A DNA stretch of 64,000 nt, taken from positions 1,054,001 to 1,118,000 of the forward strand of contig NZ_AP022593.1 of NCBI RefSeq assembly GCF_010731815.2, given 5' to 3'. The notes under the pieces were generated by a model that worked only from the letters and a program-made list of their open reading frames with translations, had not been told where the DNA came from and made no database searches. Positions 29,241 through 55,304 of this stretch are shown here, one piece after another. The DNA is from Mycolicibacterium arabiense (GTDB taxonomy: Bacteria; Actinomycetota; Actinomycetes; Mycobacteriales; Mycobacteriaceae). Position numbers and translations under genes: made by a program. The first letter of the stretch is position 1; each line of letters begins with the position of its first letter.

Positions 29241-31061
29241 CTACGACTTCGCGTCGGCGCCGGCCTGCTTGGGCTTGGCGTCGATTCCCGACTCCTTGCG
29301 CTGCTGTGGCGTGATCGGCGCGGGCGCATCGGTCAATGGATCGACACCGCCGCCGGACTTCGGGAACGCGATCACCTCGCGGATCGAGTCCACGCCCGAG
29401 AGCAGCGCGACGATGCGGTCCCAGCCGAACGCGATGCCACCGTGCGGCGGGGCGCCGAAGGTGAACGCGTCGAGCAGGAAGCCGAACTTGTCCTGCGCCT
29501 CGTCGTGGTCGATGCCCATCATCGCGAACACCCGCTCCTGCACGTCGCGACGGTGGATGCGGATGGACCCGCCGCCGATCTCGTTGCCGTTGCAGACGAT
29601 GTCGTAGGCGTTGGCCAGCGCGGTGCCCGGCTCGGTGTCGAACGTGGCCTCGGATTCCGGCTTGGGCGAGGTGAACGCGTGGTGCACCGCGGTCCACGCA
29701 CCCGACCCGACGGCCACGTCGCCGGAGGCGGTCGCGTCGTCGGCGGGCTCGAACAGCGGCCAGTCGACCACCCAGGCGAACGCCCACGCGGCCGGGTCGA
29801 TCATGTCGAGGCGCTTGGCGACCTCGATGCGGGTGGCGCCGAGCAGTGCCCGCGCCGCCTTGACCGGGCCCGCGGAGAAGAAGATGCAGTCGCCGGGCGC
29901 GGCTCCGACGTGGGCGGCGAGACCGTCGCGTTCGGCATCGGTGAGGTTCTTCGCCACGGGTCCGCCGAGGGTGCCGTCCTCGGCGACCAAGACGTACGCC
30001 AGGCCCTTGTGACCGCGCTGCTTCGCGAACTCCTGCCAGCCGTCGAGTGTGCGCCGCGGCTGGGATGCGCCACCGGGCATGACGACCGCGCCCACGTAGG
30101 GCGCCTGGAACACGCGGAACGTCGTGTCGGCGAAGTACTCGGTGCACTCGACGAGCTCCAGTCCGAACCGCATGTCCGGCTTGTCCGAGCCGAACCGGCG
30201 CATGGCCTCGGCGTAGGTGATGCGCGGGATCGGCAGCGGCAGGTCGTAGCCGATCAGGGCCCATAGCGCCTTGAGGACCTGCTCGGAGACCGCCATGACG
30301 TCGTCGGCGTCGACGAAGCTCATCTCCATGTCGAGCTGGGTGAACTCCGGCTGACGGTCGGCGCGGAAGTCCTCGTCGCGGTAGCAGCGGGCGATCTGGT
30401 AGTACCGCTCCATCCCCGCCACCATCAGCAGCTGCTTGAACAGCTGCGGGCTCTGCGGCAGCGCGTAGAACGACCCTGGCTGCAGGCGGGCGGGCACCAG
30501 GAAGTCCCGGGCGCCCTCGGGGGTGGAGCGGGTCAGCGTCGGCGTCTCGATCTCGACGAAGTCGTGCCCGGCCAACACATTGCGAGCGGCGGCGTTGACC
30601 TTGGACCGCAGCCGCAGCGCTGCGCCCGGCCCTTCGCGACGCAGGTCGAGGTAGCGGTATTTCAGGCGCGCCTCCTCCCCCGGTGTCTCGTCGAGTTGGA
30701 AGGGCAGCGGCGCACTCTCGCTCAGCACGGTGAGCGTGGTCGCGTTGACCTCGATGTCGCCGGTGGGGATGTCGGCGTTCGCGTTCCCCTCCGGACGGAC
30801 CTCGACCACGCCCGTGACGGCAACGCAGAACTCCGAGCGGAGCCGATGCGCCTGCTCCAGCACGCCCGCGTCGCGGAACACCACCTGCGCGACGCCCTGC
30901 CAATTCCCCGAGTCGCTGCGCTCCCGCCCGCCGGAACCGTCCCGCAGGTCGATGAAGATCACCCCACCGTGGTCGCGCCGGCGCGCCACCCAGCCGGCGA
31001 GCGTCACCGTCTGCCCGGCATCGGTGGACCGCAACGATCCGGCGGCGTGACTGCGCAACAC
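29241..31061 (-). CDS. aspS: Aspartyl-tRNA(Asp/Asn) synthetase, with an in-frame repeat insertion
   Basis: A 606-residue class IIb synthetase. It has the N-terminal OB-fold anticodon domain, motif 2 in [22 protein letters not shown], a GAD insertion domain, and motif 3 in [16 protein letters not shown]. tuberculosis AspRS, as I recall it, charges both tRNA-Asp and tRNA-Asn and runs directly from the DLRDxSG strand to AQVVF. Here about 12 extra residues ([12 protein letters not shown]) intervene near residue 45. They are encoded by a 30-bp element that also occurs in the metallo-hydrolase gene at 54.8 kb. The reading frame is intact. Start GTG at 31061. Confidence 0.97.
30905..30934 (-). repeat. 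30-bp dispersed element, copy 1, inside aspS
   Basis: This copy contains CCCCGAGTCGCTGCGCTCCC followed by GCCCGCCGG on the plus strand. It matches the copy at 54833-54862 at 28 of 30 positions. On the coding (minus) strand both copies are read in the same frame as GG(R/Q)ERSDSG. It lies in a surface loop region between two strands of the anticodon-binding domain and adds residues absent from remembered mycobacterial AspRS. Confidence 0.8.
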
Positions 31062-31109
31062 GAAGACTCCTCGTCCTGGGGGTGGGTACTGGTAACGAAC
31101 CGACTGATG

Positions 31110-31115
31110 AGTCTA
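31110..31115 (-). promoter_or_regulatory. Candidate -10 element of aspS
   Basis: TAGACT on the minus strand lies about 50 bp upstream of the aspS GTG, and AGGACGAGGAG precedes the start codon. This resembles the mycobacterial SigA -10 sequence. No clear -35 is seen. The same short divergent region must hold the promoter of the PanE-like gene. Confidence 0.35.
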
Positions 31116-31145
31116 GTGCGGGCGGTGCGGGGGTATTTTCGCCCC

Positions 31146-32060
31146 GTGGACCAGCGCCCTCGCGAAGATGCCGACGTCAGCAGGATCGCCGTGGTCGGGC
31201 CCGGCGCCATCGGGACCACCGTCGCGGCGCTGCTGTACGAGGCGGGACACGACGTCCTGGTCTGCGGACGTACGCCGCGTGCCACCTCCGAGGTGCGCCC
31301 CGACGACGGCGACGCGGTCGTGGTGCCGCATCCGGTGTGCACCGATCCCGCCGAGGTCGACGGTCCGGTCGACGTCGTCCTCTTGACGGTCAAGGACACT
31401 CAGACCGAGTCCGCAGCCGGGTGGCTGCAGGCACTGTGCGGGCCCGACACCGTGGTGTGCGCGCTGCAGAACGGCGTCGAGCAGGTCGAACGCGTCGGGC
31501 GGTACTGCCCGGGATCGACGGTAGTGCCGTGCGTGGTGTGGTTCTCGGCCGAGACACAGCCCGACGGGTCGGTGCGGCTGCGCACCCCGGTGCGGCTCGT
31601 CCTGCCCGACGAGCCGGCGGGACGCGATCTCGTCGAGCGGTTGACCGGTCCGCGGATGTCGGTCGAGGCCAACCCGGATTTCCTCAGCGCCGCGTGGCAC
31701 AAATTGCTCGTCAACGCCGTCGGTGCGTTGATGGTGCTGTCGGGCCGCACCTCGGGCAGCTTCCGTCGCAACGACGTCGCCGCCCTGGCACGGGCCTATC
31801 TCGCCGAGTGCCTGGCCGTTGCGCGCGCCGAGGGGGCGAACCTGGGCGACGAGGTGATCGACCAGACGGTCGCGCTGTTCGCTGGGCTGCCCGAGGACCT
31901 GACGACGTCGATCCTCACCGACCGCCAGCACGGCAGGCCGCTGGAGTGGGACGTCCGCAACGCGGTGGTGGTGCGCCGCGCGGCGGTCCACGGTCTGCCG
32001 ACGCCGATCGGCGACGTGATGGTGCCGCTGCTGGCCGCCGCCAGCGACGGTCCGGGGTAG
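31146..32060 (+). CDS. 2-dehydropantoate 2-reductase (PanE/ApbA) family oxidoreductase
   Basis: A 304-residue NADPH-dependent reductase. The N-terminal Rossmann motif is IAVVGPGAIGTTVAALLYEAGHDVLVCGR, the substrate-binding ALQNGVEQVERV follows, and a catalytic lysine sits in WHKLLVNAVGALMVLSGR, near residue 190. The C-terminal helical domain ends with PLEWDVRNAVVVRRAAVHGLPTP, typical of ketopantoate reductases. It would make pantoate for coenzyme A, though many paralogues act on other 2-keto acids. Start GTG 31146 was preferred; ATG 31107 would add 13 unconserved residues. Its stop codon lies inside an 11-bp inverted repeat before the next gene. M. tuberculosis has Rv2573 here. Confidence 0.85.
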   Translation: MDQRPREDADVSRIAVVGPGAIGTTVAALLYEAGHDVLVCGRTPRATSEVRPDDGDAVVVPHPVCTDPAEVDGPVDVVLLTVKDTQTESAAGWLQALCGPDTVVCALQNGVEQVERVGRYCPGSTVVPCVVWFSAETQPDGSVRLRTPVRLVLPDEPAGRDLVERLTGPRMSVEANPDFLSAAWHKLLVNAVGALMVLSGRTSGSFRRNDVAALARAYLAECLAVARAEGANLGDEVIDQTVALFAGLPEDLTTSILTDRQHGRPLEWDVRNAVVVRRAAVHGLPTPIGDVMVPLLAAASDGPG

Positions 32061-32085
32061 ACACTTGGGCCTAGAGTGTCTACCC
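32055..32085. promoter_or_regulatory. Perfect 11-bp inverted repeat abutting the SRPBCC gene start
   Basis: GGGTAGACACT-N9-AGTGTCTACCC spans from the stop codon region of the PanE-like gene to the base before ATG 32086. A possible -10 box, TAGAGT (32072-32077), lies in the spacer and right arm, 8 bp before the ATG, the spacing expected for a leaderless mycobacterial transcript. No Shine-Dalgarno sequence precedes the ATG. The symmetry therefore looks like a repressor operator over the promoter; the regulator is not identified. Confidence 0.6.
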
Positions 32086-32610
32086 ATGGCACGTACCTAC
32101 CCGTGTGACCGCGTCGGCCTCGACTTCATCGAGTCGGCCCCGTTCCGATTCGTCAGCACCGTCGACCTGCCGATCACACCCGAGCAGCTGTTCGGAGTAC
32201 TCGGCGACGCCGAGTCGTGGCCGCAGTGGGCCTCGGTGATCACCCACGTGGAGTGGACCAGCCCCGAACCGCGGGGCGTCGGCACCACGCGGACGGTCAC
32301 GATGCGCGGCAACATCGTCGGCGACGAGGAGTTCCTCGCTTGGGAGCCGTTCACGCACATGGCCTTTCGCTTCAACCAGAGCACGTCGAACGCGATCTCG
32401 GCGTTCGCCGAGGACTACCGCGTGATCGAGACGCCGGGCGGCTGCCACCTGACGTGGGTCATGGCGATGCAGCCGAACGGGACCGCGGGGCGGCTGGGCA
32501 TGACCCTGTTCCAGCCCGTGATGGCCTGGCTGTTCCAGCGTTTCCTGCACAACCTGCGGCGCTACACCGACGAGCGGTTCAGTACAGCCCCTCCCACGCC
32601 GAACGCCTGA
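32086..32610 (+). CDS. SRPBCC family protein (polyketide cyclase/dehydrase-like)
   Basis: A 174-residue START-like protein. The segments STVDLPITPEQLFGVLGDAESWPQWASVITHVEWTSPEPRGVGTTRTVTM and HLTWVMAMQPNG...RFLHNLRRYTDERF are typical of the mycobacterial polyketide cyclase/dehydrase group that binds hydrophobic ligands. The biochemical role is unknown. The gene starts directly after an 11-bp inverted repeat without a ribosome binding site, suggesting leaderless translation. Its 3' end overlaps the convergent esterase gene by 32 bases. In M. tuberculosis the corresponding position is Rv2574. Confidence 0.8.
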   Translation: MARTYPCDRVGLDFIESAPFRFVSTVDLPITPEQLFGVLGDAESWPQWASVITHVEWTSPEPRGVGTTRTVTMRGNIVGDEEFLAWEPFTHMAFRFNQSTSNAISAFAEDYRVIETPGGCHLTWVMAMQPNGTAGRLGMTLFQPVMAWLFQRFLHNLRRYTDERFSTAPPTPNA

Positions 32611-34078
32611 TCCGGTCGGGATCGGCGACGGTTTCGTCCCTGGTGGACCTGATGATCCGGGTACGTCGGTCGCGGTCGTCGTAGAGCGGCCACTCCCCGC
32701 CCTCCTGCACGCCGAGGCGGCCCTTGGCGAAGTCCAGCCAGGTGCGCTGCATGCGGCGGCCCACCGCGGGTTGGACGCGGCGGCCCAGCGGGTGGATCTT
32801 GCGCCCGAGATACGACGAGTAGCTGTGCTGTACGTGCACGATCTCGCTGCCGTGGGTGGCCCCGAGACCCAGCGCGCGCAGCGTCCAGGTGGCGTGGTCG
32901 AACCGGTAGACGTGCGTCGGCGCGAGCGCGCTGTACGCGTCGGCGAACGCCCACGTCGGCGCGCCGAACATCGCATCGGCACCGAAGGCCACCAGTGCGC
33001 TGCGCCGCGGGTACGCCGGATAGGCGGCGAGCACGTCGTCCTTGGCGTGCGGCGCGGTGCGCGCGAAGTAGGACTCGATCCCGTCGAGGGTCGTCGGCAG
33101 CATGGGCGGCTTGCCCCAGGCGAACATCGACGCCTCGTGGGTGTTGGTGCCGACGATCAGCGGGATGCGTGCCACCGCACCCGCCCGTGCCGCGTCGATC
33201 GGGTGCCGGGGCAGCAGGTCGACGCCGTGGGTGAGCCCGTAGGCGAGGTGCGGACTGTCCGCCGCGCTCTCCCCCTGCAGCTCGCCTGCCGCACGGCGCA
33301 GGCGACGCTGCGGCAGCGCCTTCACCTCGTCGACGCCGACGCCGAGCCGCTCGAGGAAACGCCAGGCGCGCCCGGCCCTGGTCTCGCGGTCCGCGATCAG
33401 TGGCAGGGCGGGGCTCTGCGCGATCGCGCGGGTGAACAGTCCGCGGGCGGCGGGCGTGGCGAGTAGCGCCAACACCGATGTCGCACCGGCGGATTCGCCG
33501 AACACCGTCACCCGGTCGGGGTCGCCGCCGAATGCCGCGATGTTGTCGCGCACCCAGGACAGCGCCGCCAGTTGATCCCGCAGGCACAGGTTGTCGTCGA
33601 ACCCGTCGCCGAGCGTGCTGAGGTCGAAGCCGCCGAAGACGCCAAGCCGGTAGGTCACGTTGACCACGACGACGCCGCCGTTGGCCGCCAGCCGCGATCC
33701 GTTGTAGAGCTGTAGCTGCCCGGCCCCGTAGACGAACGCACCGCCGGGAATCCACACCATCACCGGCAGCGATGCCGTCGGATCGGGCGACCACACCGTC
33801 ACCGTCAGGCACGCCTCGTCGCGGATCTTGGGGTCGTCGCGCCCACCGCCGACGAAGGACCGGCCCTGTGGCGGCAGCGGCCCGTGCTCGACGGCGTCGC
33901 GCACCCCCGACCACGGCTCGAGCGGAACGGGGGCGAGGAAGCGGCGGTCTTCCACCGGCTGCTCGGCAAATGCCACGCCGCGCCACACGTTGACCCCGCC
34001 CTCGACGGCGCCACGCAGGACCCCGTGGCGGGTCTGCGCGATCGTTCGATCCTCCGCGGTTTCGCGCTGAGCCGTCAC
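32579..34078 (-). CDS. Type-B carboxylesterase (alpha/beta hydrolase)
   Basis: A 499-residue esterase of the cholinesterase/type-B family. The oxyanion hole is GGAFVYGAG, the nucleophile Ser196 lies in VFGESAGATS, and an acidic residue and the histidine in LGATHGSEIVHV complete the triad. The edge motif EACLTVTVWSP near residue 88 is characteristic. It hydrolyses carboxyl esters, and no signal peptide is visible, so it is probably cytoplasmic. Start GTG 34078. It is divergent from the metallopeptidase gene and overlaps the SRPBCC gene at its 3' end. Confidence 0.9.
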   Translation of the reverse strand: MTAQRETAEDRTIAQTRHGVLRGAVEGGVNVWRGVAFAEQPVEDRRFLAPVPLEPWSGVRDAVEHGPLPPQGRSFVGGGRDDPKIRDEACLTVTVWSPDPTASLPVMVWIPGGAFVYGAGQLQLYNGSRLAANGGVVVVNVTYRLGVFGGFDLSTLGDGFDDNLCLRDQLAALSWVRDNIAAFGGDPDRVTVFGESAGATSVLALLATPAARGLFTRAIAQSPALPLIADRETRAGRAWRFLERLGVGVDEVKALPQRRLRRAAGELQGESAADSPHLAYGLTHGVDLLPRHPIDAARAGAVARIPLIVGTNTHEASMFAWGKPPMLPTTLDGIESYFARTAPHAKDDVLAAYPAYPRRSALVAFGADAMFGAPTWAFADAYSALAPTHVYRFDHATWTLRALGLGATHGSEIVHVQHSYSSYLGRKIHPLGRRVQPAVGRRMQRTWLDFAKGRLGVQEGGEWPLYDDRDRRTRIIRSTRDETVADPDRIRRSAWEGLY

Positions 34079-34153
34079 GGGGAAATCCTAGTGTGCGAAG
34101 CTGAACGCGGCTGCGGCGCAGCCACCCCTGACGTGTCGATGAATGGAGCGCGC

Positions 34154-35041
34154 ATGACGTTCAACGAGGGCATGCAGATCGACACGAGCACCACCCGATC
34201 CAGCGGTGGCGGAGGCGGCGGTGGACGGGGAATCGCCGTCGGCGGCGGTCTCGGCGGCCTGATCATCGTGGTCGTCGCGCTGTTTCTCGGGGTGGACCCG
34301 AGCACGATGGGCGCCGGCCCAGGCGAGTCGCAGGGCGTACAGACGCCCGGCTTCGACCTGAGCCAGTGCCGCACCGGCGCGGACGCGAACAACATCGTCG
34401 AGTGTCGAGTGGTGGCGACCGGGAACTCGGTCGACGCCGTCTGGTCACAGTTGCTTCCCGACTACACGCGCCCCACGGTCCGGCTGTTCCAGGACAACGT
34501 CGAGACACAGTGCGGGCCGGCCACCGAAGCCGTCGGGCCGTTCTACTGCCCGCCCGACCAGACGGCCTACTTCGACGTGGACTTCTTTCAGACGCTGAAG
34601 ACCGAGTTCGGCTCCAGCGGCGGGCCACTGGCGCAGGAATACGTCGTCGCCCACGAGTTCGGCCACCACGTGCAGGACCTGCAGGGCACCCTCGTCAACG
34701 CGCAGCGGGACCCGACCGGTCCCGAGGGCGGCGGCGTCCGCACCGAGCTGCAGGCCGACTGCTACGCGGGCATCTGGGCGCACTACGCGTCGATCACCAA
34801 GCAGGAGGGCACCGGCCAGCCGTTCCTGGAACCGTTGACGGACAACGACATCGCCGACGCGCTGTCGGCGGCGGCATCGGTCGGCGACGACCGCATCCAG
34901 GAGAAGACGCAGGGTCGCGTCAGCCCCGAGGCGTGGACGCACGGCTCGGCTGCCGGGCGGCAGTACTGGTTCACCGAGGGCTACCGCACGGGCGACGTGA
35001 ACGCGTGCGACACCTTCGCTGCGCAAGACCTGCACCAGTGA
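34154..35041 (+). CDS. Neutral zinc metallopeptidase, YpfJ family
   Basis: A 295-residue membrane-anchored peptidase. The short N-terminal cytoplasmic tail begins MTFNEGMQIDTS and is followed by a poly-Gly stretch and a transmembrane helix at about residues 33-46. The zincin motif HEFGH is at 167-171 (VVAHEFGHHVQD), with a downstream Glu in LQADCYAGIWAHYA as likely third ligand. The C-terminus has DRIQEKTQGRVSPEAWTHGSAAGRQYWFTEGY, diagnostic of the family. The substrate is unknown. In M. tuberculosis the counterpart is Rv2575. The stop overlaps the next gene start (GTGA). Confidence 0.92.
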   Translation: MTFNEGMQIDTSTTRSSGGGGGGGRGIAVGGGLGGLIIVVVALFLGVDPSTMGAGPGESQGVQTPGFDLSQCRTGADANNIVECRVVATGNSVDAVWSQLLPDYTRPTVRLFQDNVETQCGPATEAVGPFYCPPDQTAYFDVDFFQTLKTEFGSSGGPLAQEYVVAHEFGHHVQDLQGTLVNAQRDPTGPEGGGVRTELQADCYAGIWAHYASITKQEGTGQPFLEPLTDNDIADALSAAASVGDDRIQEKTQGRVSPEAWTHGSAAGRQYWFTEGYRTGDVNACDTFAAQDLHQ

Positions 35042-35598
35042 CGACGGCCGAGGTCGACGGTCCGAACGGCATCGAGCCGGACACGAAGGATTGGACGTGG
35101 GTCCTCGAACGACCCTGTGACGAGTGCGGTTTCAACGCCTCCTCGATCTCGCACTACGACGTCGCGGGGGCCATCCGCCGCGACGCCGCCGACTGGGTCC
35201 GCCGCCTGTCCGGGCCCTCGGTGCGCGAGCGGTCGAATCCCGCGGTGTGGTCGGTGCTCGAGTACGGCTGTCACGTCCGCGACGTGCACCGGATGTTCGA
35301 CGGCAGGGTCCGGCTGATGCTCGCCGAGGACGAACCGCTCTTCCCCAACTGGGATCAGGACGCCACCGCCGTGGACGACGACTACGCCTCCCAGCACGCC
35401 GCGGTGGTCACCGAGGGCCTGGTGCAGGCCGCGCACCGGGTCGCCGACACCTACGCGTCGGTGTCTGCCGACCAGTGGTCGCGACCGGGGCTGCGCAGCA
35501 ACGGCAGCAGGTTCACGGTGTCGACCATCGCGGTCTACCACCTGCACGACGTCGTCCACCACGGGTGGGACGTCGACTCGCCACGGATCGGCCGGTAA
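35038..35598 (+). CDS. DinB/maleylpyruvate isomerase-like fold protein
   Basis: A 186-residue helical protein of the DinB-like superfamily. The N-terminal strand WTWVLERPCDECGF is typical of actinobacterial DinB proteins, and three potential metal-binding histidines are visible: in LEYGCHVRDVHRMF and in YHLHDVVHHGWDV near the C-terminus. Related proteins use bacillithiol or mycothiol in transfer or isomerisation reactions. The substrate is unknown. It is translationally coupled to the metallopeptidase gene (GTGA overlap) and ends 47 bp before a TetR gene. Confidence 0.75.
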   Translation: MTTAEVDGPNGIEPDTKDWTWVLERPCDECGFNASSISHYDVAGAIRRDAADWVRRLSGPSVRERSNPAVWSVLEYGCHVRDVHRMFDGRVRLMLAEDEPLFPNWDQDATAVDDDYASQHAAVVTEGLVQAAHRVADTYASVSADQWSRPGLRSNGSRFTVSTIAVYHLHDVVHHGWDVDSPRIGR

Positions 35599-35617
35599 TC
35601 CGAAGAGGCTGATCACG

Positions 35618-35644
35618 TTGAACACATTTCGATAATGTGTTCAA
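35618..35644. promoter_or_regulatory. Perfect TetR-type operator ending at the regulator's start codon
   Basis: TTGAACACATT-N5-AATGTGTTCAA is a perfect 27-bp palindrome with 11-bp arms whose last base touches the GTG of the TetR gene. A possible -10 box, GATAAT (35631-35636), lies inside it, 8 bp before the start codon, matching leaderless promoters. The TetR protein encoded just after it is the obvious ligand. Operator occupancy would block RNA polymerase for the whole TetR-monooxygenase-SDR unit. Confidence 0.8.
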
Positions 35645-36247
35645 GTGCCCGATGACCCGTTGCCACCCCGGGCTGCCTCGCTCGCCCTGCTTCGGGCAAC
35701 TGCCGACACATTGCGCCGTCTCGGTCCCCGCCGCTTCAGCCTGACTGCTGTCGCAGACGCCGCCGGGGTGTCCCGCGGTACCGTGCACAACGCATTCGGC
35801 AGCCGGGACCGGGCAATCAAGGTCGCCCTCGATCACCTCGCCTCGGCGTTCGTCGACACGATGGCCGACGAAGTGCACCGGTCCGGCACGCTGGCCGACC
35901 AGGTGGCCGCCGCCGCCCAGCTGATCTGTGCCCACCGGCAGCGCTCCGATCACGTCGTGCCCGGCGGCATCAACGAGAGCATCCTGGTGCTGCTGCTGCG
36001 CCACAGCGGTGACGACCTGGTCCACCGCGCCATCGAACTGTGGCAGCCGCACGTGTTGGCTGCCCAGAGCAGCGGCGAAGTCGGCCCAGGCGTCGACGCC
36101 AAACGCGCGGGCGAGTGGATCGTCCGCATCCTGTTCAGCTTCGAATTACTGCCCCCCATGGGCGTCAATCTCGACAATCCCCGCGCGGTGCGGCGATTCG
36201 TCACCGACCACGTCGTCAGTGGACTCACTGGAGGAACCCATGATTGA
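35645..36247 (+). CDS. TetR family regulator of the monooxygenase/SDR operon
   Basis: A 200-residue one-domain regulator. The N-terminal helix-turn-helix is FSLTAVADAAGVSRGTVHNAFGSRDRAIKVALDHL, standard for TetR repressors. The C-terminal ligand domain is alpha-helical and rich in Leu/Val, with no recognisable subfamily signature. It starts with GTG 35645, immediately after a 27-bp palindrome and with no ribosome binding site, so it is likely leaderless and autoregulated. The 3' end overlaps the monooxygenase gene by 8 bases. The inducer is probably a substrate or product of that enzyme. Confidence 0.87.
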   Translation: MPDDPLPPRAASLALLRATADTLRRLGPRRFSLTAVADAAGVSRGTVHNAFGSRDRAIKVALDHLASAFVDTMADEVHRSGTLADQVAAAAQLICAHRQRSDHVVPGGINESILVLLLRHSGDDLVHRAIELWQPHVLAAQSSGEVGPGVDAKRAGEWIVRILFSFELLPPMGVNLDNPRAVRRFVTDHVVSGLTGGTHD

Positions 36248-39315: not shown

Positions 39316-39322
39316 CGGTGGC

Positions 39323-40201: not shown

Positions 40202-40256
40202 GGGATGACACCCCTTCCGCTGTCGGAAACTCGCCGCCAAGCACACCACAGACTCG

Positions 40257-40280: not shown

Positions 40281-40936
40281 TGGCCCGGAGCGGAGCGACC
40301 CAGCCCGGTGAGCCGACGAGGCGCGCGAGCGCCGAGCCGGCAGCTGCCGGTGCGGTCGAGGAGGAATCCCGCGCCACCCGGTTCATGCGGTCGGCGCTGT
40401 CGATCCTCGGCGAGACCGGGAGGGCCGACTTCACCGTCCTCGAAGTCGTCGAGCGGTCGAAGACGTCACTGCGGTCGTTCTATCAGCACTTCTCGAGCAA
40501 GGACGAGCTGCTGCTCGCCCTCATCGAGAAGATCATGTCGGAGTCCACGCTGCGCTGGCGTGCCGACACCGACGACCTCGGTGCCGCCGAGGCCCTGCGC
40601 CTGCTGATCGAACGAGTCAGCGCTCCCGCGTCGTCCACCACCCAGGACAGCATCAACAGAGGTCTGACGTTCTACAACGACCACCTGGCCGAGACCGTCC
40701 CCGCCGAGTACGCCAGGGTGTTGGCCCCGGTGAAGGTGCTGATCGGCGACATCATCGACCGCGGCATCGCCGAGGAGGTCTTCGCACCGGACCTCGACGT
40801 CGACGCCTCCGCGACGCTGATCATGCAGTCCGCGATGGGAGCGATGCGGCTGCGGGTGCTGGGCGCCGAACTCAACGGCACCCCTCTCGAGGGCAAGCAC
40901 ATCTACGACTTCTGCCTGCGCGCCCTGGCGAAGTGA
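40280..40936 (+). CDS. TetR family regulator near acyl-CoA dehydrogenase genes
   Basis: A 218-residue TetR-type repressor. After a disordered Ala/Glu-rich N-terminus (about 35 residues) come the helix-turn-helix FTVLEVVERSKTSLRSFYQHFSSKDELLLALIEKI and an all-helical ligand domain. Start GTG 40280, with no ribosome binding site, suggests leaderless translation. A shared 12-nt motif in its own promoter and in front of the acyl-CoA dehydrogenase genes suggests it controls these genes, and the divergent thioesterase. The inducing acyl-CoA is unknown. Confidence 0.85.
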   Translation: MARSGATQPGEPTRRASAEPAAAGAVEEESRATRFMRSALSILGETGRADFTVLEVVERSKTSLRSFYQHFSSKDELLLALIEKIMSESTLRWRADTDDLGAAEALRLLIERVSAPASSTTQDSINRGLTFYNDHLAETVPAEYARVLAPVKVLIGDIIDRGIAEEVFAPDLDVDASATLIMQSAMGAMRLRVLGAELNGTPLEGKHIYDFCLRALAK

Positions 40937-45386: not shown

Positions 45387-45394
45387 GCCTCCAT

Positions 45395-45410
45395 TCGAAC
45401 GTGCGTTCGA
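45395..45410. promoter_or_regulatory. LexA (SOS) box before the radical SAM gene
   Basis: TCGAACGTGCGTTCGA is an exact match to the mycobacterial SOS box consensus TCGAAC-N4-GTTCGA. It is centred 16 bp upstream of the radical SAM start at 45386 and lies between that gene and the 3' end of the TetR gene, so control of the radical SAM gene is by far the likeliest role. No other match was found in the window. Confidence 0.88.
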
Positions 45411-45417
45411 TGATCTG

Positions 45418-45993: not shown

Positions 45994-46004
45994 GCCAATC
46001 AGCC

Positions 46005-46010
46005 TAGACT
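46005..46010 (+). promoter_or_regulatory. Candidate leaderless promoter -10 of the MFS gene
   Basis: TAGACT ends 7 bp before GTG 46018. This is the distance expected if transcription starts at the start codon, and no Shine-Dalgarno sequence is present. It agrees with a leaderless mRNA. Confidence 0.45.
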
Positions 46011-46017
46011 CGCAAAG

Positions 46018-47211: not shown

Positions 47212-47593
47212 ACGGACCCGTCTGCTCCACGACGACCTGGCCGTCGACGGCGATCTCGCAGCGCACGTTCGGGTCGGCCTGCATGGCGTGCGCGGCACCG
47301 CTGGCCGAGAGGAACGCCCACTGCGAATCGGCCAGCGTGGTCTCGAAGACCCATGGGGCACCCGGCGCGAGGTTCACCTTCTCGCTCTTGACGAACGCGT
47401 TCGGGTCGGCGTGGTACGCCTCGAGGCTCGGCGGCGCCGCGAACGAGTAGTAGAGATTGAAGTCCCCCGGCCCCAACGCCGAGAGCGTGTACCTGACCTG
47501 GTGTGCGGCGGGTTCCGCACTCGCCGTCTGGCCCAGCCCGAGCGACGCTGCCGCCAGCGCGAACGCGGTTCCAACCACTGCTGTCTTACGCAT
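47177..47593 (-). CDS. Secreted mycobacterial protein of MmpS-like composition
   Basis: A 138-residue exported protein. [30 protein letters not shown] is a signal peptide with probable cleavage after ASA near residue 27. The mature part ([35 protein letters not shown]... then [29 protein letters not shown]) is beta-rich and holds two cysteines that could form a disulfide. It recalls the MmpS/transport-accessory fold found in mycobacteria, but the similarity is by eye and the function is unknown. ATG 47593. It is divergent from urtA and overlaps the MFS gene at its 3' end. Confidence 0.7.
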
Positions 47594-47848
47594 GATCGTC
47601 ACATCGACGGACCGTACCGCACCGTTACACGGCACACCCGGGGACTCGAAGCCATCGTGGATACCCGCCGATCCTCGGGTGAACACCGTGCGAACGCGGC
47701 GTTAATTCATTCGTCACGTACAGAAATTTCACAGAAACAAAGCGTCTCTAACGTCCCGCATCGACGCTCGACGAGCGTCGAACCTCAGCGCTCGCAGCGG
47801 ATTCGGAATCCGCGTGCCAGCGCCTCGCGGCACGACGAAAGGTTGTTC
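47594..47848. promoter_or_regulatory. AT-richer divergent region before urtA
   Basis: This 255-bp region lies between the secreted-protein gene and urtA. Around 47702-47742 it becomes notably AT-rich (TTAATTCATTCG, GAAATTTCACAGAAAC), as is usual for regulated nitrogen-uptake promoters. Sequence pieces such as GTCAC and GAAAC recall the half-sites of the nitrogen regulator GlnR, but the spacing does not fit the consensus well. GAAAGG at 47837-47842 is the urtA ribosome binding site. No other structure was seen. Confidence 0.35.
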
Positions 47849-49126
47849 ATGCGGTTGTCCAATGGGGGTACCACCCGCTCGCGGCTCAATAAATCGGCCC
47901 TGGCGGCCGGGAGCCTGATCGCCACGACCAGCCTCCTCCTGGCCGGTTGTGGCAGCAAGGCGAGCGAAACCGATGGCGCCGCAGCCGCGTCGTGCGTCGA
48001 CACGTCCGGCTCGACCGTCAAGGTGGGGTCACTCAACTCCCTGTCGGGCACGATGGCGATCTCCGAGGTCACCGTTCGCGATGCCATCAAGCTGGCCGTC
48101 GACGAGATCAACGCCTCCGGCGGCGTCATGGACAAGCAACTCCAACTCGTCGGGGAAGACGGAGCGTCGGAACCCACGGTGTTCGCGGAGAAGGCCGAGA
48201 AGCTCATCAGCAGCGACTGTGTCGCAGCGGTGTTCGGCGGCTGGACGTCGTCGAGCCGCAAGGCCATGCTGCCGGTCTTCGAGAGCAACAACGCGCTGCT
48301 CTACTACCCCGTGCAGTACGAGGGCCTCGAGTCGAGCAAGAACATCTTCTACACCGGTGCCACCACCAACCAGCAGATCGTGCCCGCCCTGGACTACCTG
48401 AAGGAGAAGGGCATCAAGTCGCTCTACCTCGTCGGTAGCGACTACGTGTTCCCCCAGACGGCGAACCGGATCATCAAGGCCTACGCGAGTGCCAACGGCA
48501 TCGAGATCAAGGGCGAGGACTACACCCCGCTCGGATCGACCGACTTCTCCACCATCGTGAACAAGGTGCGCAGCGCGGACGCCGACGCCGTGTTCAACAC
48601 GCTCAACGGCGATTCCAACGTCGCCTTCTTCCGCGAGTACCGCAACGTCGGCCTGACCCCACAGCAGATGCCGGTGGTCTCGGTGTCGATCGCCGAGGAA
48701 GAAGTCGGCGGCATCGGCGTGCAGAACGTCGCGGGCCAGCTCACGGCCTGGGACTACTACCAGACCATCGACACCCCGGTGAACCAGAAGTTCGTCGCCG
48801 CGTACGAGAAGGCCTACGGCGCCGACAAGCCGACCTCGGATCCTATGGAAGCCGCGTACGTCTCGGTGTACCTGTGGAAGAACACCGTCGAGAAGGCGAA
48901 GTCGTTCGACGTCAAGGCCATTCAGGACAACGCGGGCGGTGTCACGTTCGACGCGCCCGAGGGTCTGGTGACCATCGACGGTGAGAACAACCACATCACC
49001 AAGACCGCACGCATCGGCGAGATTCGGCCCGACGGACTGATCTACACGGTGTGGGAGTCCCCCGGCCCGATCGAGCCGGACCCCTACCTGAAGTCCTACC
49101 CGTGGGCCGCCGGCCTGTCCGGCTGA
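47849..49126 (+). CDS. urtA: Urea ABC transporter substrate-binding lipoprotein
   Basis: A 425-residue amide/urea-type binding protein. The signal peptide ends in lipobox LAGC with Cys34. The mature region has [27 protein letters not shown], then [33 protein letters not shown] and [18 protein letters not shown], closely typical of UrtA/FmdD proteins. It captures urea or a short-chain amide outside the membrane. ATG 47849 has GAAAGG 6 bp upstream. The other four urt genes follow with tiny gaps or overlaps. Confidence 0.92.
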
Positions 49127-49133
49127 TTCGCCC

Positions 49134-50018
49134 GTGGATGTCCTGATCGGACAGCTGGCAACGGGATTGAGCCTCGGCTCGATCCTGTTGCTGGCTGCAC
49201 TGGGACTGTCGCTGACGTTCGGCCAGATGGGCGTCATCAACATGGCGCACGGCGAGTTCATCATGGCCGGCTGCTACACCGCGTACGTCGTGCAGCAGGT
49301 GTTCTCGAACGCCGGTGTCTCACTGCTGCTCTCACTGGTCATCGGGTTCTTCGTCGGTGGCCTCATGGGAGTGGTCCTGGAGGTCACGCTGATTCAGCGG
49401 ATGTACGACCGGCCGCTGGACACCCTGCTGGTGACGTTCGGCGTGGGGCTGATCCTGCAGCAGGTGGCGCGCGACGTGTTCGGCGCACCCGCCGTCAACG
49501 TCATCGCCCCGACGTGGCTGCCGGGTGGTGTCGAGATCTTCGGTGCCGTGGTACCCAAGACCCGCATCTTCATCCTGATCCTCGCCGCGGTGTGCGTGGC
49601 GGCGCTGGCCACGGCGCTCAAGACGAGCCCGATGGGACGGCGCATCCGCGCCGTCGTGCAGAACCGGGATCTGGCCGAGACGAGCGGCATCTCGTCGCGC
49701 AAGACCGACATCACGACGTTCTTCCTCGGATCGGGTCTGGCGGGCGTGGCCGGGGTGGCACTGACCTTGATCGGCTCCACGAGCCCCACCACCGGGCAGA
49801 GTTACCTCATCGACGCGTTCCTCGTCGTCGTCGTCGGCGGTCTCGGCCACATCAAGGGCACGGTGATCGCGGCCCTGGGGCTGGGGTTCTTCAACTCGTT
49901 CATCGAGTACAACACCACCGCCTCGCTGGCCAAGGTGATCGTGTTCGTGATCATCGTGTTCTTCCTGCAGGTTCGCCCGCAGGGACTGTTCACCGTTCGG
50001 ACCAGGAGCCTCGTATGA
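49134..50018 (+). CDS. urtB: Urea ABC transporter permease UrtB
   Basis: A 294-residue branched-chain/urea-type permease. GLSLGSILLLAALGLSLTFGQMGVINMAHGEFIM is the LivH/UrtB N-terminal pattern, and the C-terminal region has LIDAFLVVVVGGLGHIKGTVIAALGLGFFNSFIEY. About eight or nine transmembrane helices are predicted. It forms the channel with UrtC. The start is GTG 49134, 7 bp after urtA, and the end overlaps urtC by 4 bases. Confidence 0.92.
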   Translation: MDVLIGQLATGLSLGSILLLAALGLSLTFGQMGVINMAHGEFIMAGCYTAYVVQQVFSNAGVSLLLSLVIGFFVGGLMGVVLEVTLIQRMYDRPLDTLLVTFGVGLILQQVARDVFGAPAVNVIAPTWLPGGVEIFGAVVPKTRIFILILAAVCVAALATALKTSPMGRRIRAVVQNRDLAETSGISSRKTDITTFFLGSGLAGVAGVALTLIGSTSPTTGQSYLIDAFLVVVVGGLGHIKGTVIAALGLGFFNSFIEYNTTASLAKVIVFVIIVFFLQVRPQGLFTVRTRSLV

Positions 50019-51133
50019 CACGCGTACTCGGCCGCTGGCAGACGTGGGCGGGGTTCGGCATCGCCGCCGTCGCGCTGTTCGGCGTCGCCCCCGCGCTGCT
50101 GTCGGACTTCCGGCTCAGCCTGCTGGCGAAATTCCTGTGCTTCGCCATCGTGGCGGTCGGCATCGGATTGGCATGGGGCCGTGGTGGAATGCTCGTCCTG
50201 GGCCAGGGCGTCTTCTTCGGTCTCGGCGGCTACATCATGGGGATGCATCTGAAGATCTCCGACGCCGCGCTCACCAAGCAGGCGGTGCCGGACTTCATGC
50301 AGATCGCGGGCGTTCGAGAACTGCCCGCCTACTGGCAGCCGTTCGCATCGCCCATCGTCACGCTGCTGGCGGTCGTGTTCGTCCCGACGGCGATCGCCGC
50401 CCTGCTCGGACTCGGCGTGTTCAAGCGCCGCGTCAAGGGCGCGTACTTCGCCATCCTGTCCCAGGCGCTGGCGGCCGCGCTGGCGATCCTGCTGATCGGC
50501 CAGACCAGCATCGGGGGAAGCAACGGGCTCAACAACTTCCGCACGTTCTTCGGGTTCGCGCTCAAGGACCCGGTGAACAAGCAGATGCTCTACTTCATCG
50601 CGGCGGCGGTCCTGCTTATCGTCGTCGCAATCGTGCGCCAGCTGATGCAGAGCCGCTACGGCGAGCTCTTGGTCGCGGTGCGCGACGGTGAGGAGCGCGT
50701 GCGCTTCCTCGGGTACGACCCGGCGAACGTCAAGGTCGTCGCCTACACGGTGGCCGCGTTGTTCGCCAGCATCGCGGGCGCGCTGTTCGCCCCGATCGTC
50801 GGCTTCATCGCGCCGTCACAGGTTGGCATCCTGCCGTCGATCGCGTTCCTCATCGGGGTGGCGATCGGGGGCAGGACGACGCTACTCGGACCGGTGCTCG
50901 GCGCGATCGGCGTGGCGTGGGCGCAAACCGTGTTCTCCGAACGCTTTCCGTCGGAGTGGACCTACGCCCAAGGCCTGCTGTTCATCGTGGTCGTCGGGTT
51001 CTTCCCCGCCGGCCTCGCGGGGCTCGGCGTCTTCCTGCGTCGCCGACGCAAGGGCAAGCCCAAGGCGGAACCTGACCCGGTGGCGTTAACGGACCCCGAC
51101 CCCGCTCCCGAGAAGGCAGGAGCCAGCCGATGA
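50015..51133 (+). CDS. urtC: Urea ABC transporter permease UrtC
   Basis: A 372-residue permease of the LivM/UrtC type. It has GIGLAWGRGGMLVLGQGVFFGLGGYIMGMHL near residue 50, the insert between helices with DAALTKQAVPDFM, and VGFIAPSQVGILPSIAFLIGVAIGGRTTLLGPVLGA near the C-terminus, followed by a charged cytoplasmic tail. ATG 50015 overlaps urtB; the stop overlaps urtD (ATGA). Confidence 0.93.
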   Translation: MTRVLGRWQTWAGFGIAAVALFGVAPALLSDFRLSLLAKFLCFAIVAVGIGLAWGRGGMLVLGQGVFFGLGGYIMGMHLKISDAALTKQAVPDFMQIAGVRELPAYWQPFASPIVTLLAVVFVPTAIAALLGLGVFKRRVKGAYFAILSQALAAALAILLIGQTSIGGSNGLNNFRTFFGFALKDPVNKQMLYFIAAAVLLIVVAIVRQLMQSRYGELLVAVRDGEERVRFLGYDPANVKVVAYTVAALFASIAGALFAPIVGFIAPSQVGILPSIAFLIGVAIGGRTTLLGPVLGAIGVAWAQTVFSERFPSEWTYAQGLLFIVVVGFFPAGLAGLGVFLRRRRKGKPKAEPDPVALTDPDPAPEKAGASR

Positions 51134-51954
51134 CCGAGACGCAGACTCCAGGCAGCATGACGACGCCGGTGGCCGGCGGCAATGTCGGCATGGGCACCCA
51201 GTACCTCGAAGTGCGCGGGCTGACCGTGGACTTCGACGGTTTCAAGGCCGTCAGCGACGTCGATCTCACGCTCTTTCAGGGTGACCTGCGATTCCTGATC
51301 GGGCCCAACGGCGCGGGCAAGACGACCGTCATCGACGCCATCACCGGGTTGGTGTCGGGCACGGGGTCGGTCAGCAAGTCCGGCGTCGAACTGCTCGGCA
51401 AGAAGGTGCATCAGATCGCCCGCCTGGGCGTGGGCCGAACGTTTCAGACGGCGAGCGTGTTCGAGCAAATGACGGTGCTGCAGAACCTCGACATCGCCGC
51501 AGGCGCGGGGCGGTCGGCGTGGACGCTGCTGCGGCGACGATCCGGGGTGTTGCCCGCCATCGAGGAGGCGCTCGAGATCACCGGCCTGGCCGACCTGGCG
51601 GACCGGCCCGCGGGGGTGCTGGCGCACGGGCAGAAGCAGTGGCTGGAGATCGGCATGCTCCTGGTCCAGAACGCCGACGTGCTGCTGCTGGACGAACCCG
51701 TGGCCGGGATGAGCCACGACGAACGCGAGGAGACGGGAAACCTGTTGCGACGCATCGGTAGCGAACGGACCGTGGTCGTCGTCGAACACGACATGGACTT
51801 CATGCGGGCGTTCGCGACGTCGGTGACGGTGCTGGCGCGCGGGCAGGTGATCGCCGAGGGAACCGTCGCCGAGGTGCAGGCCAACCCCAAGGTGCAGGAG
51901 GTCTACCTCGGCACCGCCGCGGCGGGCACCGATGCTCTGGTGGAGGAGCCCTGA
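51130..51954 (+). CDS. urtD: Urea ABC transporter ATPase UrtD
   Basis: A 274-residue ABC ATPase. Walker A is GPNGAGKTTVIDAITG near residue 58, the signature is the variant LAHGQKQWLEIGMLL, and Walker B is DVLLLDEPVAGMSHDE; the H-loop is VVVEHDMDFMRAFA. The unusual LAHGQ signature in place of LSGGQ is normal for UrtD proteins. A 25-residue Thr/Gly-rich N-terminus precedes the domain. It works with UrtE to energise urea import. Confidence 0.93.
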   Translation: MTETQTPGSMTTPVAGGNVGMGTQYLEVRGLTVDFDGFKAVSDVDLTLFQGDLRFLIGPNGAGKTTVIDAITGLVSGTGSVSKSGVELLGKKVHQIARLGVGRTFQTASVFEQMTVLQNLDIAAGAGRSAWTLLRRRSGVLPAIEEALEITGLADLADRPAGVLAHGQKQWLEIGMLLVQNADVLLLDEPVAGMSHDEREETGNLLRRIGSERTVVVVEHDMDFMRAFATSVTVLARGQVIAEGTVAEVQANPKVQEVYLGTAAAGTDALVEEP

Positions 51955-52646
51955 TGCTCGAACTCGTCGACGTCCGTAGCGGTTACGGCCGCTCGGAGGT
52001 GATCCACGGGGTGAACCTCGAGGTGCCCACCGACGGCGTCGCCGCGGTGATGGGACACAACGGTGCAGGCAAGACCACGCTGCTGCGCGTCGCGGTCGGG
52101 CTGTTGAAGTGCTCGGGCGGCAAGGTGATGTTCGATGGCGAGGACGTCACGAAGATGCGACCGAGCGCCCGGGTCGCGCGCGGGCTGGCGTACGTGCCGC
52201 AAGGCCAGCAGTCCTTCGGGCAGCTCACCACGGCGGAGAACCTGCAGGTGGTCGCCGACGGTCGCAAGAACGGCAAGCAGCTCATCGACGAGCAACTGGA
52301 CCTGTTCCCGGCGCTCAAGGAGCTGCTGGGCCGGCGGGCCGGGTTGCTGTCGGGCGGTCAGCGCCAGCAACTGGCGATCGCGCGGGCGCTCATCACCACG
52401 CCGACGTGCCTGATCCTCGACGAGCCCACCGAGGGCATCCAACCCTCGGTGGTCGCCGAGATCGAGGCGGCGATCACAGCGCTCACCCGGCGGGGTGGTC
52501 TGGGCGTGCTGCTGGTCGAGCAGCACATCGGGTTCGCTCTCGAGTCGGCGCAGCGCTACTACATCCTCGAGTCTGGGCGCGTGACGTCGAGTGGCACTGG
52601 TGGTTCCGCGTCGGAGGCCGACGTGCGCGCCGCGATGGCGATCTAG
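51954..52646 (+). CDS. urtE: Urea ABC transporter ATPase UrtE
   Basis: A 230-residue LivF-type ATPase. Walker A is [16 protein letters not shown], the signature is [16 protein letters not shown], and Walker B is [16 protein letters not shown], with the EGIQP form characteristic of UrtE. It starts at ATG 51954, overlapping the urtD stop by one base (TGATG). The 3' end overlaps dtd (convergent) by 4 bases. This completes a five-gene urea importer; no urease genes are in the window. Confidence 0.94.
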
Positions 52647-53077
52647 GACAGTTCGAGCAGCAAGGTAACCGGTCCGTCGTTGACCAGTTCGACCTTCATG
52701 TCGGCGCCGAAGACGCCCGTCTCGACGTCGGCGCCGAGACCGCGCAGCGCGTCGCACATCGCATCGACGAGGGGTTCGGCGACGGCGCCGGGTGCGGCCG
52801 CGTTCCACGACGGCCTCCGCCCCTTCGCCGTGTCGGCGTACAGCGTGAACTGGCTGACCACGAGGATGGGTGCCGCCACGTCGGCAGCGCTGCGCTCACC
52901 GTCGAGAATGCGCAGGCGCCAAAGCTTCTCGGCCATCCGCGCGGCCACGTCGGCGTCGTCGGTGTGCGTGATGCCGACGAGCGCCAGCAGTCCCTGACCT
53001 GCCGGGGCGATCTCCCCTACCACGTCGCCTTCGACCACGACCCGCGCCGAAGTCACCCGTTGCACCAGTACCCGCAT
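52643..53077 (-). CDS. dtd: D-aminoacyl-tRNA deacylase
   Basis: A 144-residue proofreading enzyme that removes D-amino acids, and in some cases glycine, from mischarged tRNA. The SQFTLYAD motif near residue 80 and the cross-subunit [12 protein letters not shown] motif at the C-terminus are intact; [17 protein letters not shown] is the typical start. ATG 53077 was chosen because it gives this N-terminus. It is convergent with urtE (4-bp overlap) and lies downstream of the 254-bp intergenic region beside hisS. Confidence 0.93.
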
Positions 53078-53331
53078 GGGCCATGATGCTGCCATCCCCG
53101 CGGTGCTCTGGGTCGCGGGGGTCGACGGCACGCGCCTCGGGGCGGCACCGGACCTTAGCGCTGTGGAGTGTCGACTTACGCTACGCGACACGCTATCTCG
53201 CGTAGCTCAACCCCACACTCGGCGCGTACACCCCGGCTTCGGCCCCACGAGCGTGCGCACACTCCCGCCCCCACCCGGCGTGTCGCCCGCAGACACGCAC
53301 GCTCGCGGGAGGAGGTAACCCAGCAAGCGGC
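53078..53331. repeat. Repeat-rich intergenic region between dtd and hisS
   Basis: This 254-bp stretch carries no convincing gene. It holds GCTACGCGA-N9-TCGCGTAGC (53180-53188 / 53198-53206) and a second inverted repeat, CGAGCGTGCG / CGCACGCTCG (53248-53257 / 53296-53305), around a GC-rich centre with GGCGTGTCGCCCGCAGACACG. The latter resembles a class of short GC-rich repeats seen in mycobacterial intergenic DNA, from memory. It also contains the hisS 3' flank and any dtd promoter. Confidence 0.45.
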
Positions 53332-54606
53332 CTAGAGGAGGCGGACGCGGCCCAGGCGCGCGAGCACGTTGCCCACGACGGCGTCGATGGCCACGTCGAC
53401 CTGCTCGCCGGTGGCCAGGTCCTTGACGCCCACGGTGCCCGCCTCGACGTCGCGGTCGCCGGCAACCAGGGCCATCGACGCACCGGAGCGGTCGGCAGCC
53501 TTCATCGCGCTCTTCATGCTGCGGTCGCCGTAGGCCAGGTCCACCCGAACACCCGCATCCCGCAGCGCCGCACCCAGTTTCGCCAACTCGAGCTTCGCCG
53601 CGTCGCCCAGCGGCACGGCGAACACGTCGACGGCGCTCGTCTGGCCCACCGTCTTGCCCTCGGCCTTGAGCGCGAGCAGCGTCCGGTCCACGCCGAGCCC
53701 GAAACCGATGCCGGACAGGTCACGCCCGCCGAGCTGGCGCATCAACCCGTCGTAGCGTCCACCGCCACCGATACCCGACTGCGCGCCGAGACCGTCGTGG
53801 ACGAACTCGAACGTCGTCTTCGTGTAGTAGTCCAGCCCGCGCACCATTCGCGGGTTGATCACGTACGGCACCCGCAGCGCGTCGAGATGCGCGAGCACCG
53901 TGTCGAAGTGCTGCTTGGCCACGTCGGACAGGTGGTCCATCATCACCGGGGCGTCAGCGGTCATCTTCCGCACGTGCGGCCGCTTGTCGTCGAGCACCCG
54001 TAGCGGGTTGATCTCGGCCCGCCGCCGGGTGTCCTCGTCGAGGTCGAGCTTGAACAGGAACTCCTGCAACAACTCTCGATACTGCGGTCGGCACGTGTCA
54101 TCGCCCAGGGAGGTGATCTCCAGGCGAAAGCCGTCGAGCCCGAGCGCACGGAACCCACTGTCGGCGATGGCGATCACCTCGGCGTCGAGCGCCGGGTCGT
54201 CGACGCCGATGGCCTCGACGCCCACCTGCTGCAGCTGCCGGTAACGACCGGCCTGCGGGCGCTCGTAGCGGAAGAACGGACCCGAGTAGCAGAGCTTGGC
54301 GGGCAGCGCACCGCGGTCGATGCCGTGCTCGATGACGGCGCGCATCACGCCCGCGGTGCCCTCGGGCCGCAGGGTCACCGACCGCTCCCCGCGATCGGCG
54401 AAGGTGTACATCTCCTTGGACACGACGTCGGTGGACTCCCCCACGCCGCGCGCGAACAGGGACGTGTCCTCGAAGATCGGTAGCTCGACGTAGCCGTAGC
54501 CGGCACGACGGGCCGACTCCAGCAGACCGTCGCGGACGGCGACGAACTGGGCGGACTCGGGCGGCAGGTAATCCGGGACGCCCTTGGGCGCCTGAAATTC
54601 GCTCAT
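53332..54606 (-). CDS. hisS: Histidyl-tRNA synthetase
   Basis: A 424-residue class II synthetase. Motif 2 region is [26 protein letters not shown], the histidine-recognition motif is [14 protein letters not shown], motif 3 is [15 protein letters not shown], and the C-terminal anticodon-binding domain has the usual [13 protein letters not shown] start and [17 protein letters not shown]. The ATG at 54606 overlaps the metallo-hydrolase gene stop by one base (TGATG), so the two are translationally coupled. The gene order matches M. tuberculosis Rv2580c-Rv2581c. Confidence 0.97.
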
Positions 54607-55304
54607 CACAGACCTTCGAGGAAGGGGTTGGTTCGGCGTTCGGCGCCGATGGTGGTCTTCTCGCCGTGCCCCGGCAGCACCACGGTGGAGTCGTCGAGGA
54701 CCAACAGCTTCTCGACGATCGACGTGTAGAGGTCGCGACCGCTGCCACCCTCGAGATCCGTCCGGCCGATCGACTTCTTGAACAGCGTGTCGCCCGTGAA
54801 CGCCATCTCCGCCGGCCCGTTCGCCCACGACATCCCCGAGTCGCTTCGCTCCTGCCCGCCGGCAACGCGGAACGTCACCGACCCCCTGGTGTGCCCCGGG
54901 GTGTGGTCGACGGTGACGGTCATGCCGCCGAGTTCGATCTTGTCGCCGTCGCGGTCGAGTTCGACGACCTGCCGCGGCTCGGTGAACATCACTCCGACCG
55001 CGAGTTGAGCGAGCCGAGGACCGAAGCCCTTGATCGGATCCTTGAGCATGGCCCGGTCCTCGGGGTGGATGAAGGCCGGGCACCCGTAGGTGTCCGCAAC
55101 CTTCTGCGCGGACCAGACGTGGTCGATGTGCCCGTGGGTGAGCAGCACCGCCGCCGGAGTCAGCCGGTTCTCGTCGAGGATCTTGCGCAGCCGCGGCATG
55201 GCCTTCTGGCCTGGGTCGACGATGATCGCGTCAGCGCCCTGACTCGGGGCGAGGACATAGCAGTTGCACTGCAGCCATCCCGCAGGGAAACCGGTGATCA
55301 ACAC
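54606..55304 (-). CDS. Metallo-beta-lactamase-fold hydrolase (glyoxalase II-like) with in-frame repeat insertion
   Basis: A 232-residue metallo-hydrolase related to glyoxalase II. The zinc motif HxHxDH is [10 protein letters not shown] near residue 60, and further ligands are the His in [10 protein letters not shown], the Asp in AFTGDTLF and the His in LPGHGEKTT. It probably hydrolyses a thioester such as a thiol-linked hydroxyacid. Between the FRVAG strand and AFTGDTLF lies an extra segment [19 protein letters not shown], encoded by the 30-bp element also present in aspS. The frame and all ligands are intact. GTG 55304 was chosen as start. Confidence 0.9.
54833..54862 (-). repeat. 30-bp dispersed element, copy 2, inside the metallo-hydrolase gene
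   Basis: This copy has CCCCGAGTCGCTTCGCTCCT followed by GCCCGCCGG on the plus strand and differs from the aspS copy at two of 30 positions. It is read in the same frame as the aspS copy, giving GGQERSDSG. It falls in a loop just before the AFTGDTLF metal-binding motif. The inner part is an imperfect palindrome (GAGTCGCT/CGCTC). Confidence 0.8.

Follow-up and report, generated by a model that had tools for sequence, protein, structure and literature searches.

How does the same 30-bp sequence come to lie, on one strand and in one reading frame, inside two different genes of the same bacterium? The question is raised by a 64,000-nucleotide stretch of the genome of Mycolicibacterium arabiense (assembly GCF_010731815.2, contig NZ_AP022593.1, positions 1,054,001 to 1,118,000), analysed here in full and referred to as the window, in which near-identical segments are found in aspS, the gene for aspartate--tRNA ligase (AspRS), and in a gene for a hydrolase of the metallo-beta-lactamase (MBL) fold. 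These segments are very probably copies of a dispersed, inserted element. The explanation that we favour, with a probability of about 60%, is a very small non-autonomous mobile element of 36 bp, belonging to the genus Mycobacterium as drawn by our genome set, of which a trans-acting factor makes new copies at CCGGC-like sites.

Two copies of a large family

The first copy (CCGGCGGGCGGGAGCGCAGCGACTCGGGGA, 30905-30934, minus strand) lies in aspS (29241-31061, minus strand), a gene assigned by its NCBIfam family match and by alignment to the solved AspRS 4rmf. It encodes GGRERSDSG, residues 44-52 of AspRS, and departs from the 30-mer of the family at one position. The second copy (54833-54862, minus strand) is this 30-mer exactly and encodes GGQERSDSG within a gene for a hydroxyacylglutathione hydrolase-like protein of the MBL fold (54606-55304, minus strand; the start is placed at 55304 and an upstream start at 55382 is possible). 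Both copies are in frame within their host genes. A preliminary description of the window had reported that the two segments agree at 28 of 30 positions in a common strand and frame, had given the two peptides and had seen no further copy in the window. The match was recomputed and is correct, translation of the minus strand, which is the sense strand of both, yields the same peptides, and a pattern made from the two copies, with up to three mismatches allowed, matched nothing else in the window and none of 100 dinucleotide shuffles. A looser scan of the window (up to nine mismatches) returned one weak extra match, at 60066 with eight mismatches, and one-strand shuffles gave 0 to 2 matches each. 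An exact GAGCGGAGCGA core, with the remainder of the element unmatched, is also present at 40288-40298, adjoining a predicted gene start (40280).

Beyond the window the family is large. Sampled genomes are denoted by G codes and loci by L codes, and the present genome, G000, comprises 6.45 Mb in two contigs (6.02 Mb, and C1 of about 434 kb). At up to three mismatches the 28-mer core GGCGGGCAGGAGCGNAGCGACTCGGGGA was found at 50 places in G000, and the control, which is the same pattern read backwards, at none. The pattern GGAGCGNAGCGACTCGGG matched 67 places at up to two mismatches, a few of which may be due to chance because the backward control gives 5. When the 30-mer was used with up to three mismatches, 102 of 198 genomes of the genus held at least one place, with a control count of 0 in each, and the largest counts were 101 (G183), 91 (G180) and 86 (G018); the other 96 genomes held none.

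The conserved unit is DNA, not peptide. In the 67 coding copies that read GGQERSDSG, the third codon position is identical in all 67 at five of the nine codons, in 66 at one and in 60 at two; only the third base of the CGN codon is mixed, and the same base is mixed in intergenic copies. Segments as short as these might resemble each other by chance or by convergence of peptides, an explanation to which we give a vanishingly small probability. It is ruled out by the 0 of 100 shuffles that match, by the 50 copies against 0 in the control, by the sharing of synonymous positions and by copies that lie outside genes or in other frames.

The gain of the element can be followed in aspS. Of 83 aspS loci, 69 have a loop of three residues (ASG, SSG and similar) and five have 15 to 18 residues including the element insert, which adds 12-15 residues; eight were unparsed by the loop rule and one, L110, reads five residues. 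The five carriers are our own locus L005 and L031, L061, L131 and L133, and as L061 and L131 come from one metagenome-assembled genome, these are five loci in four lineages. With 55 aspS genes placed on a tree, four changes, all of them gains, are needed to account for the four carriers, and at least three are forced by well-supported branches (the deep position of our own gene is weakly supported). The same AspRS loop has gained the element in four lineages. When 4rmf, which we take to be the AspRS of M. smegmatis, is aligned with our own AspRS, an exact 12-residue gap appears at the insert. This gap, which is shared by the relatives with three-residue loops, places the 36-bp inserted unit, made up of the conserved part and eight more bases, at 30897-30932 (minus strand), with borders that can be fixed only to within a few bases, since the target looks like the beginning of the element. 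A shallow and weak AlphaFold model (24 sequences; mean predicted local distance difference test, pLDDT, 70), used only to place the insert, locates it between strands 34-40 and 57-62 with pLDDT below 50 at residues 45-54; this is a turn, and probably a flexible one.

The hydrolase gene was matched in 197 of the 198 genomes of the genus. Its loop was compared in the best 30 of these 197 loci, 7 of which were unparsed by the loop rule. Six of the 30, our own included, have a copy in the same loop at up to six mismatches, four of them at up to three; L145 holds two copies in tandem, and L144 and L157 appear remnant-like by eye. By analogy with aspS the 36-bp unit is placed at 54825-54860 (minus strand), and the real difference from the shortest orthologous loops found is 13 residues (39 bp).

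Empty sites are evident where G035 is compared with its closer relatives. From G035 15 copy loci were taken, and 14 of these were sought in G176, G178 and G161, with 14 of 14 found in each. At L261, L266 and L270 all three relatives show a gap of 36 columns, and at L260 G035 has three units and the relatives none. At L263 there are four units in G035; G176 and G178 have one each, and G161 has a remnant. L271 holds two in G035, one in G178 and none in G176 and G161, and the empty G161 site reads GCCCCGGCGGGTCGG, which contains the element start. At L269 (G035:C20:45250-46550) three units compare with one decayed unit in each of the three relatives (L302, L286, L309). The unit numbers of arrays thus differ between species. 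Copy-like sequence is present in G161 as well at L265 and L274, and five of the 14 loci (L264, L267, L268, L272, L273) give untidy alignments, a relative retaining part of the sequence at some of them. The clearest copies are shown to be clean 36-bp insertions relative to these genomes.

The units at L269 are of an older variant (CACGGAGGGCAGGAGCGGAGCGACTCGGGA) with a 35-bp unit, and are located between genes.

In the preliminary description the two segments had been taken for a miniature repeat that is dispersed, spreads in coding DNA and is tolerated by the proteins, and this view is now supported by the copies, the empty sites, the repeated gain in AspRS and the shared codons. The search of the whole genome and of related species that it had proposed returned many copies, the alignment of AspRS and hydrolase orthologues found the segment in some and missing in others, and mapping on AspRS structures gave the gap in 4rmf and the turn in the weak model. 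Independent codons, or a lack of further copies, had been named there as signs of chance similarity; codons are shared and copies are many, which favours an element.

Anatomy of the unit and its possible copying

A consensus was drawn from 163 distinct copies with up to five mismatches, collected with a core pre-filter. Their conserved part is YCGGCGGGCAGGAGCGNAGCGACYCGGGGA. At positions 0-21 each base is present in at least 159 of the 163, except at position 3 (C in 145), position 8 (A in 144) and position 15, where A occurs 74 times, C 49, G 32 and T 8. Beyond position 21 there is more variation (T/C at 22, C/G at 23, G/A at 27). The free position 15 is the N of GCGNAGC, within an otherwise near-invariant core. 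By motif position and family variation this motif corresponds to GCGCAGC at 30915-30921 in copy 1 and to GCGAAGC at 54843-54849 in copy 2 (both minus strand). The conserved part is followed by a variable tail to make up the unit, and at +36 there is once more a CCGGCG-like sequence (in 58 copies, and again in 126 single copies). Neighbouring units are arranged head to tail with a spacing of 36 bp (31 cases), 37 bp (7) or 35 bp (2), as counted over overlapping loci, and in the loci examined there were no inverted neighbours within 100 bp. Among the matches listed, G013:C90:24165-24696 is an array of 15 units at 36-bp steps. Further head-to-tail arrays were observed at L117, L120, L123, L182, L183 and L204.

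DNA hairpins with a GNA loop, in which N may be any base, and two G-C pairs are exceptionally stable according to the excerpted text of PMC4686876. This stability, together with the single free base at the N of GCGNAGC, favours recognition of a hairpin by a factor in trans, and the motif of copy 1 is a candidate for such a mini-hairpin. With the flanking GGA...GAC the hairpin might be extended, within the 13-nt GGAGCGNAGCGAC, by two sheared G-A pairs and one G-C pair. In the favoured model, copying would be sequence-specific and would depend on a trans factor that reads single-stranded DNA; this last property is possible, with somewhat less than an even chance. The GNA-loop mini-hairpin GCGNAGC would be the recognised structure and CCGGC-like sequence the target, and slippage between CCGGCG repeats would let arrays expand and contract. 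Selection would then spare copies at the ends of genes, in gaps and in exposed loops, where an addition of 36 bp, being 12 codons with no stop in that frame, would do little harm. It is doubtful, though conceivable, that the unit represents a novel class of minimal mobile DNA, in which 36 nt carrying a GNA-loop mini-hairpin signal would be moved single-stranded by an enzyme, perhaps via a tiny single-stranded circle; such a circle would also yield head-to-tail arrays of 36 bp.

Several observations weigh against the model of a mobile element served in trans. No mover was found among the three protein families tried. The Y1 transposase family (PF01797), to which the transposases associated with repetitive extragenic palindromic (REP) sequences, known as RAYT, belong, was present in 2 of 10 genomes rich in copies and in 3 of 11 without any. 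Reverse transcriptase (PF00078) gave matches in 7 of 19 genomes of the first kind and 6 of 20 of the second, with five in each group exceeding the cut-off, and DUF222 was found in 39 of 39 genomes. None of the three families tracks copies. No insertion was caught within one species, and the untidy G035 sites may reflect partial loss in addition to gain. The invariance of the core is partly set by the search itself, through the limit of five mismatches and the core pre-filter. A standard folding model gives the unit no hairpin advantage: no hairpin exceeded shuffles on either strand (z +1.3 and +2.0 as DNA, +2.0 and +1.4 as RNA), meaning that it folds worse than most shuffles, and the imperfect palindrome reported in the preliminary description does not stand. 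Variants with a GNNA loop are absent from the 163 copies, in which the only one-base indels are two deletions, both outside the loop. Given no folding advantage and no GNNA-loop variants, the GNA hairpin is an interpretation of a single free position.

The main alternative, which we consider unlikely although deserving of serious attention, requires no dedicated enzyme. A fork stalled at the motif would allow the nascent strand to switch template between CCGGC-like micro-homologies and so carry a single 36-bp unit to another site, and slippage would add units to the arrays or remove them. Template switching agrees with the CCGGCG-like sequence that bounds the element at 0 and +36, with the empty G161 site, which contains the element start, with array numbers that vary between species and with the finding that none of the tested mover families tracks copies. 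By itself, however, it leaves unexplained a 22-bp core that, with one free base, is constant across many species, and also the copy-free half of the sampled genomes.

The units could also be a decayed end, or a derivative resembling a miniature inverted-repeat transposable element (MITE), of an ordinary insertion sequence and be moved by its transposase. The element is dispersed, non-coding and inserted, as such a derivative would be, and the survey of transposases was limited to Y1. However, terminal inverted repeats are visible neither in the consensus by inspection nor in the folds, inverted neighbours within 100 bp are lacking, the clean empty sites show no target site duplication and the genes between neighbouring G000 copies look by eye like ordinary cell genes, so this origin is rather improbable. 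A weak similarity between left flank and tail at offset 36 (252/756 against 206.7 expected, z 4.1; z 2.8 in an earlier count) is thinly spread over positions (z 0.0 to 2.4), with runs of four or more in 5 of 126 against about 1 expected. It is read as a trace of hidden arrays rather than of duplication because some of the longest matches adjoin a decayed neighbour copy; a minority of these matches may be real target duplications.

Relation to known repeats and significance

Mycobacterial interspersed repetitive units (MIRU) form arrays with varying numbers of units. The present element is similar to these and to other variable number tandem repeats (VNTR) in its varying array unit number, here between species, and it differs in that lone units turn up at new, unrelated sites as well. 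The small dispersed repeats (SDR) of Nostoc are 21-27 bp long and apparently mobile, and we know of no mover for them. From this description and a mention in the excerpted text of PMC3116915 they are probably nearest in spirit, differing in sequence and host. The bacterial MITEs NEMIS, ERIC and RUP are likewise non-autonomous and non-coding and are located in or beside genes, as given in excerpts of PMC3733652 and PMC2229807; terminal inverted repeats are characteristic of MITEs, and target duplications are usual in them, but in the mycobacterial element neither feature is clear.

The REP sequences are palindromic, carry a GTAG or CGTC tag, often occur as inverted doublets (REPINs) and are tied to RAYT genes, as stated in the excerpted parts of PMC3733652 and PMC3116915. 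As far as those parts describe them, they share with the present element a very short length, many copies per genome and lineage specificity, whereas the mycobacterial element is without palindromic core, GTAG or CGTC tag, inverted doublets or RAYT link. The Rickettsia palindromic element, to which the segments had been likened at the outset, is 105-146 bp long with a stem-loop and terminal inverted repeats (excerpts of PMC2229807), and its copies are dispersed, in frame within conserved protein genes, and tolerated (PMC2229807 and PMC3733652, likewise in excerpt). Against these descriptions, the likeness holds for in-frame insertion in genes and its tolerance, which here is read from intact frames, and fails for structure, the mycobacterial unit being non-palindromic, only 36 bp long and arranged in head-to-tail arrays. 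That the element should be of REP/REPIN type and moved by RAYT (Y1), or be a true Rickettsia palindromic element, as its REP-like size and its in-frame insertions could suggest, is very improbable in view of the similar frequency of Y1 in copy-rich and copy-free genomes and the lack of a palindrome and of inverted doublets.

The open-access full text that was searched held no description of the element; most subscription journals lie outside this scope, and an earlier description is possible. A search of open-access full text for the letters and the peptide of the element returned three papers that contain one of these strings, none of them mycobacterial by title. If the favoured explanation of a mobile element is true, the genus possesses a source of ready-made 12-residue in-frame insertions by which the same loops of core enzymes are reused, and thereby a test, set up by nature, of which protein loops can accept an insertion. 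Genomes range from 0 to about 100 copies, empty sites are clear and arrays can be counted, which makes the copying of elements too short to encode a product directly testable. Annotators should be aware that peptides of the GGQERSDSG type in mycobacterial proteins can be derived from a repeat, and the head-to-tail arrays could act as polymorphic markers.

Placement, orientation and distribution

Placement was determined with a home-made gene caller trained on 9628 window codons, for which start codons are uncertain, at 139 distinct sites, with each array represented by its first unit and with sites that are orthologous between two species counted separately. Predicted genes contain 94 of these sites (81 sense, 13 antisense) and 45 are intergenic, the next gene running in the same direction in 30 of the 45. 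The GGQERSDSG frame is used at 58 of the 81 sense coding sites; 20 sites begin no more than 60 nt from a predicted start, and 20 finish at most about 60 nt from a stop. Such a pattern would remain if damaging copies were removed by selection after insertion, and an insertion bias along transcription is possible. Copies on the opening or closing codons of what by eye look like genes of core function were observed at L027 (G000:C2:1271956-1274973), at L002 and L218 (G000:C2:599038-603700) and at L025.

With the terminus assumed to lie opposite dnaA, 38 of 49 copies in G000 (arrays collapsed) point along the replication fork, a stronger bias than that of coding bases in our own loci (58%). The corresponding figures elsewhere are 18/27 in G122, 10/28 in G175, 7/12 in G004 and 10/16 in G120 (among the matches listed, 17 of 38 places), and fork orientation, strong in G000 and not in other genomes, was rejected as a general rule. 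The bias in G000 and the strong sequence conservation could point to a selected functional site, such as a recombination hot spot, a segregation motif or a protein-binding motif, that is kept where it is useful. Against such a site, the element arises by insertion of 36 bp and not by point change, the orientation bias is absent or reversed elsewhere (as in G175) and 96 of the 198 genomes of the genus have no copy at up to three mismatches; we regard it as quite improbable.

Few or no copies exist outside the genus. In an order-level search 19 of 298 genomes matched, and the only ones from outside the genus were G343 and G351, with one place of three mismatches each. A class-level search, with a shorter pattern and one mismatch, matched 21 of 296 genomes, 10 inside and 11 outside the genus; the latter have 1 to 4 places each, no more than the backward control gives in about two dozen genomes. 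The single copy in G343 (L331, TCGGCGGGCAGGAGCGGAACGACCCGGGAA), a genome of a different genus in the same family, looks real by eye and can be read as old or transferred. In three genomes of one other family (G604, G541 and G509; L318, L319 and L320) a common motif, GGCAGGAGCGCAGCGACTCGGC, is found in the same context, and this may be a conserved coding stretch rather than the element.

A search of plasmid records returned 17, none of them from a mycobacterium (best E 0.07), and among phage records three of M. abscessus prophages matched at 84% and E 4, which is the level of chance; neither search gave a significant match. The 6.02-Mb contig carries all 50 listed places in G000, and the 434-kb contig, where about 3 would be expected, has none. 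All 42 listed places in G175 are likewise on the largest contig, as if smaller replicons were avoided or had never been reached.

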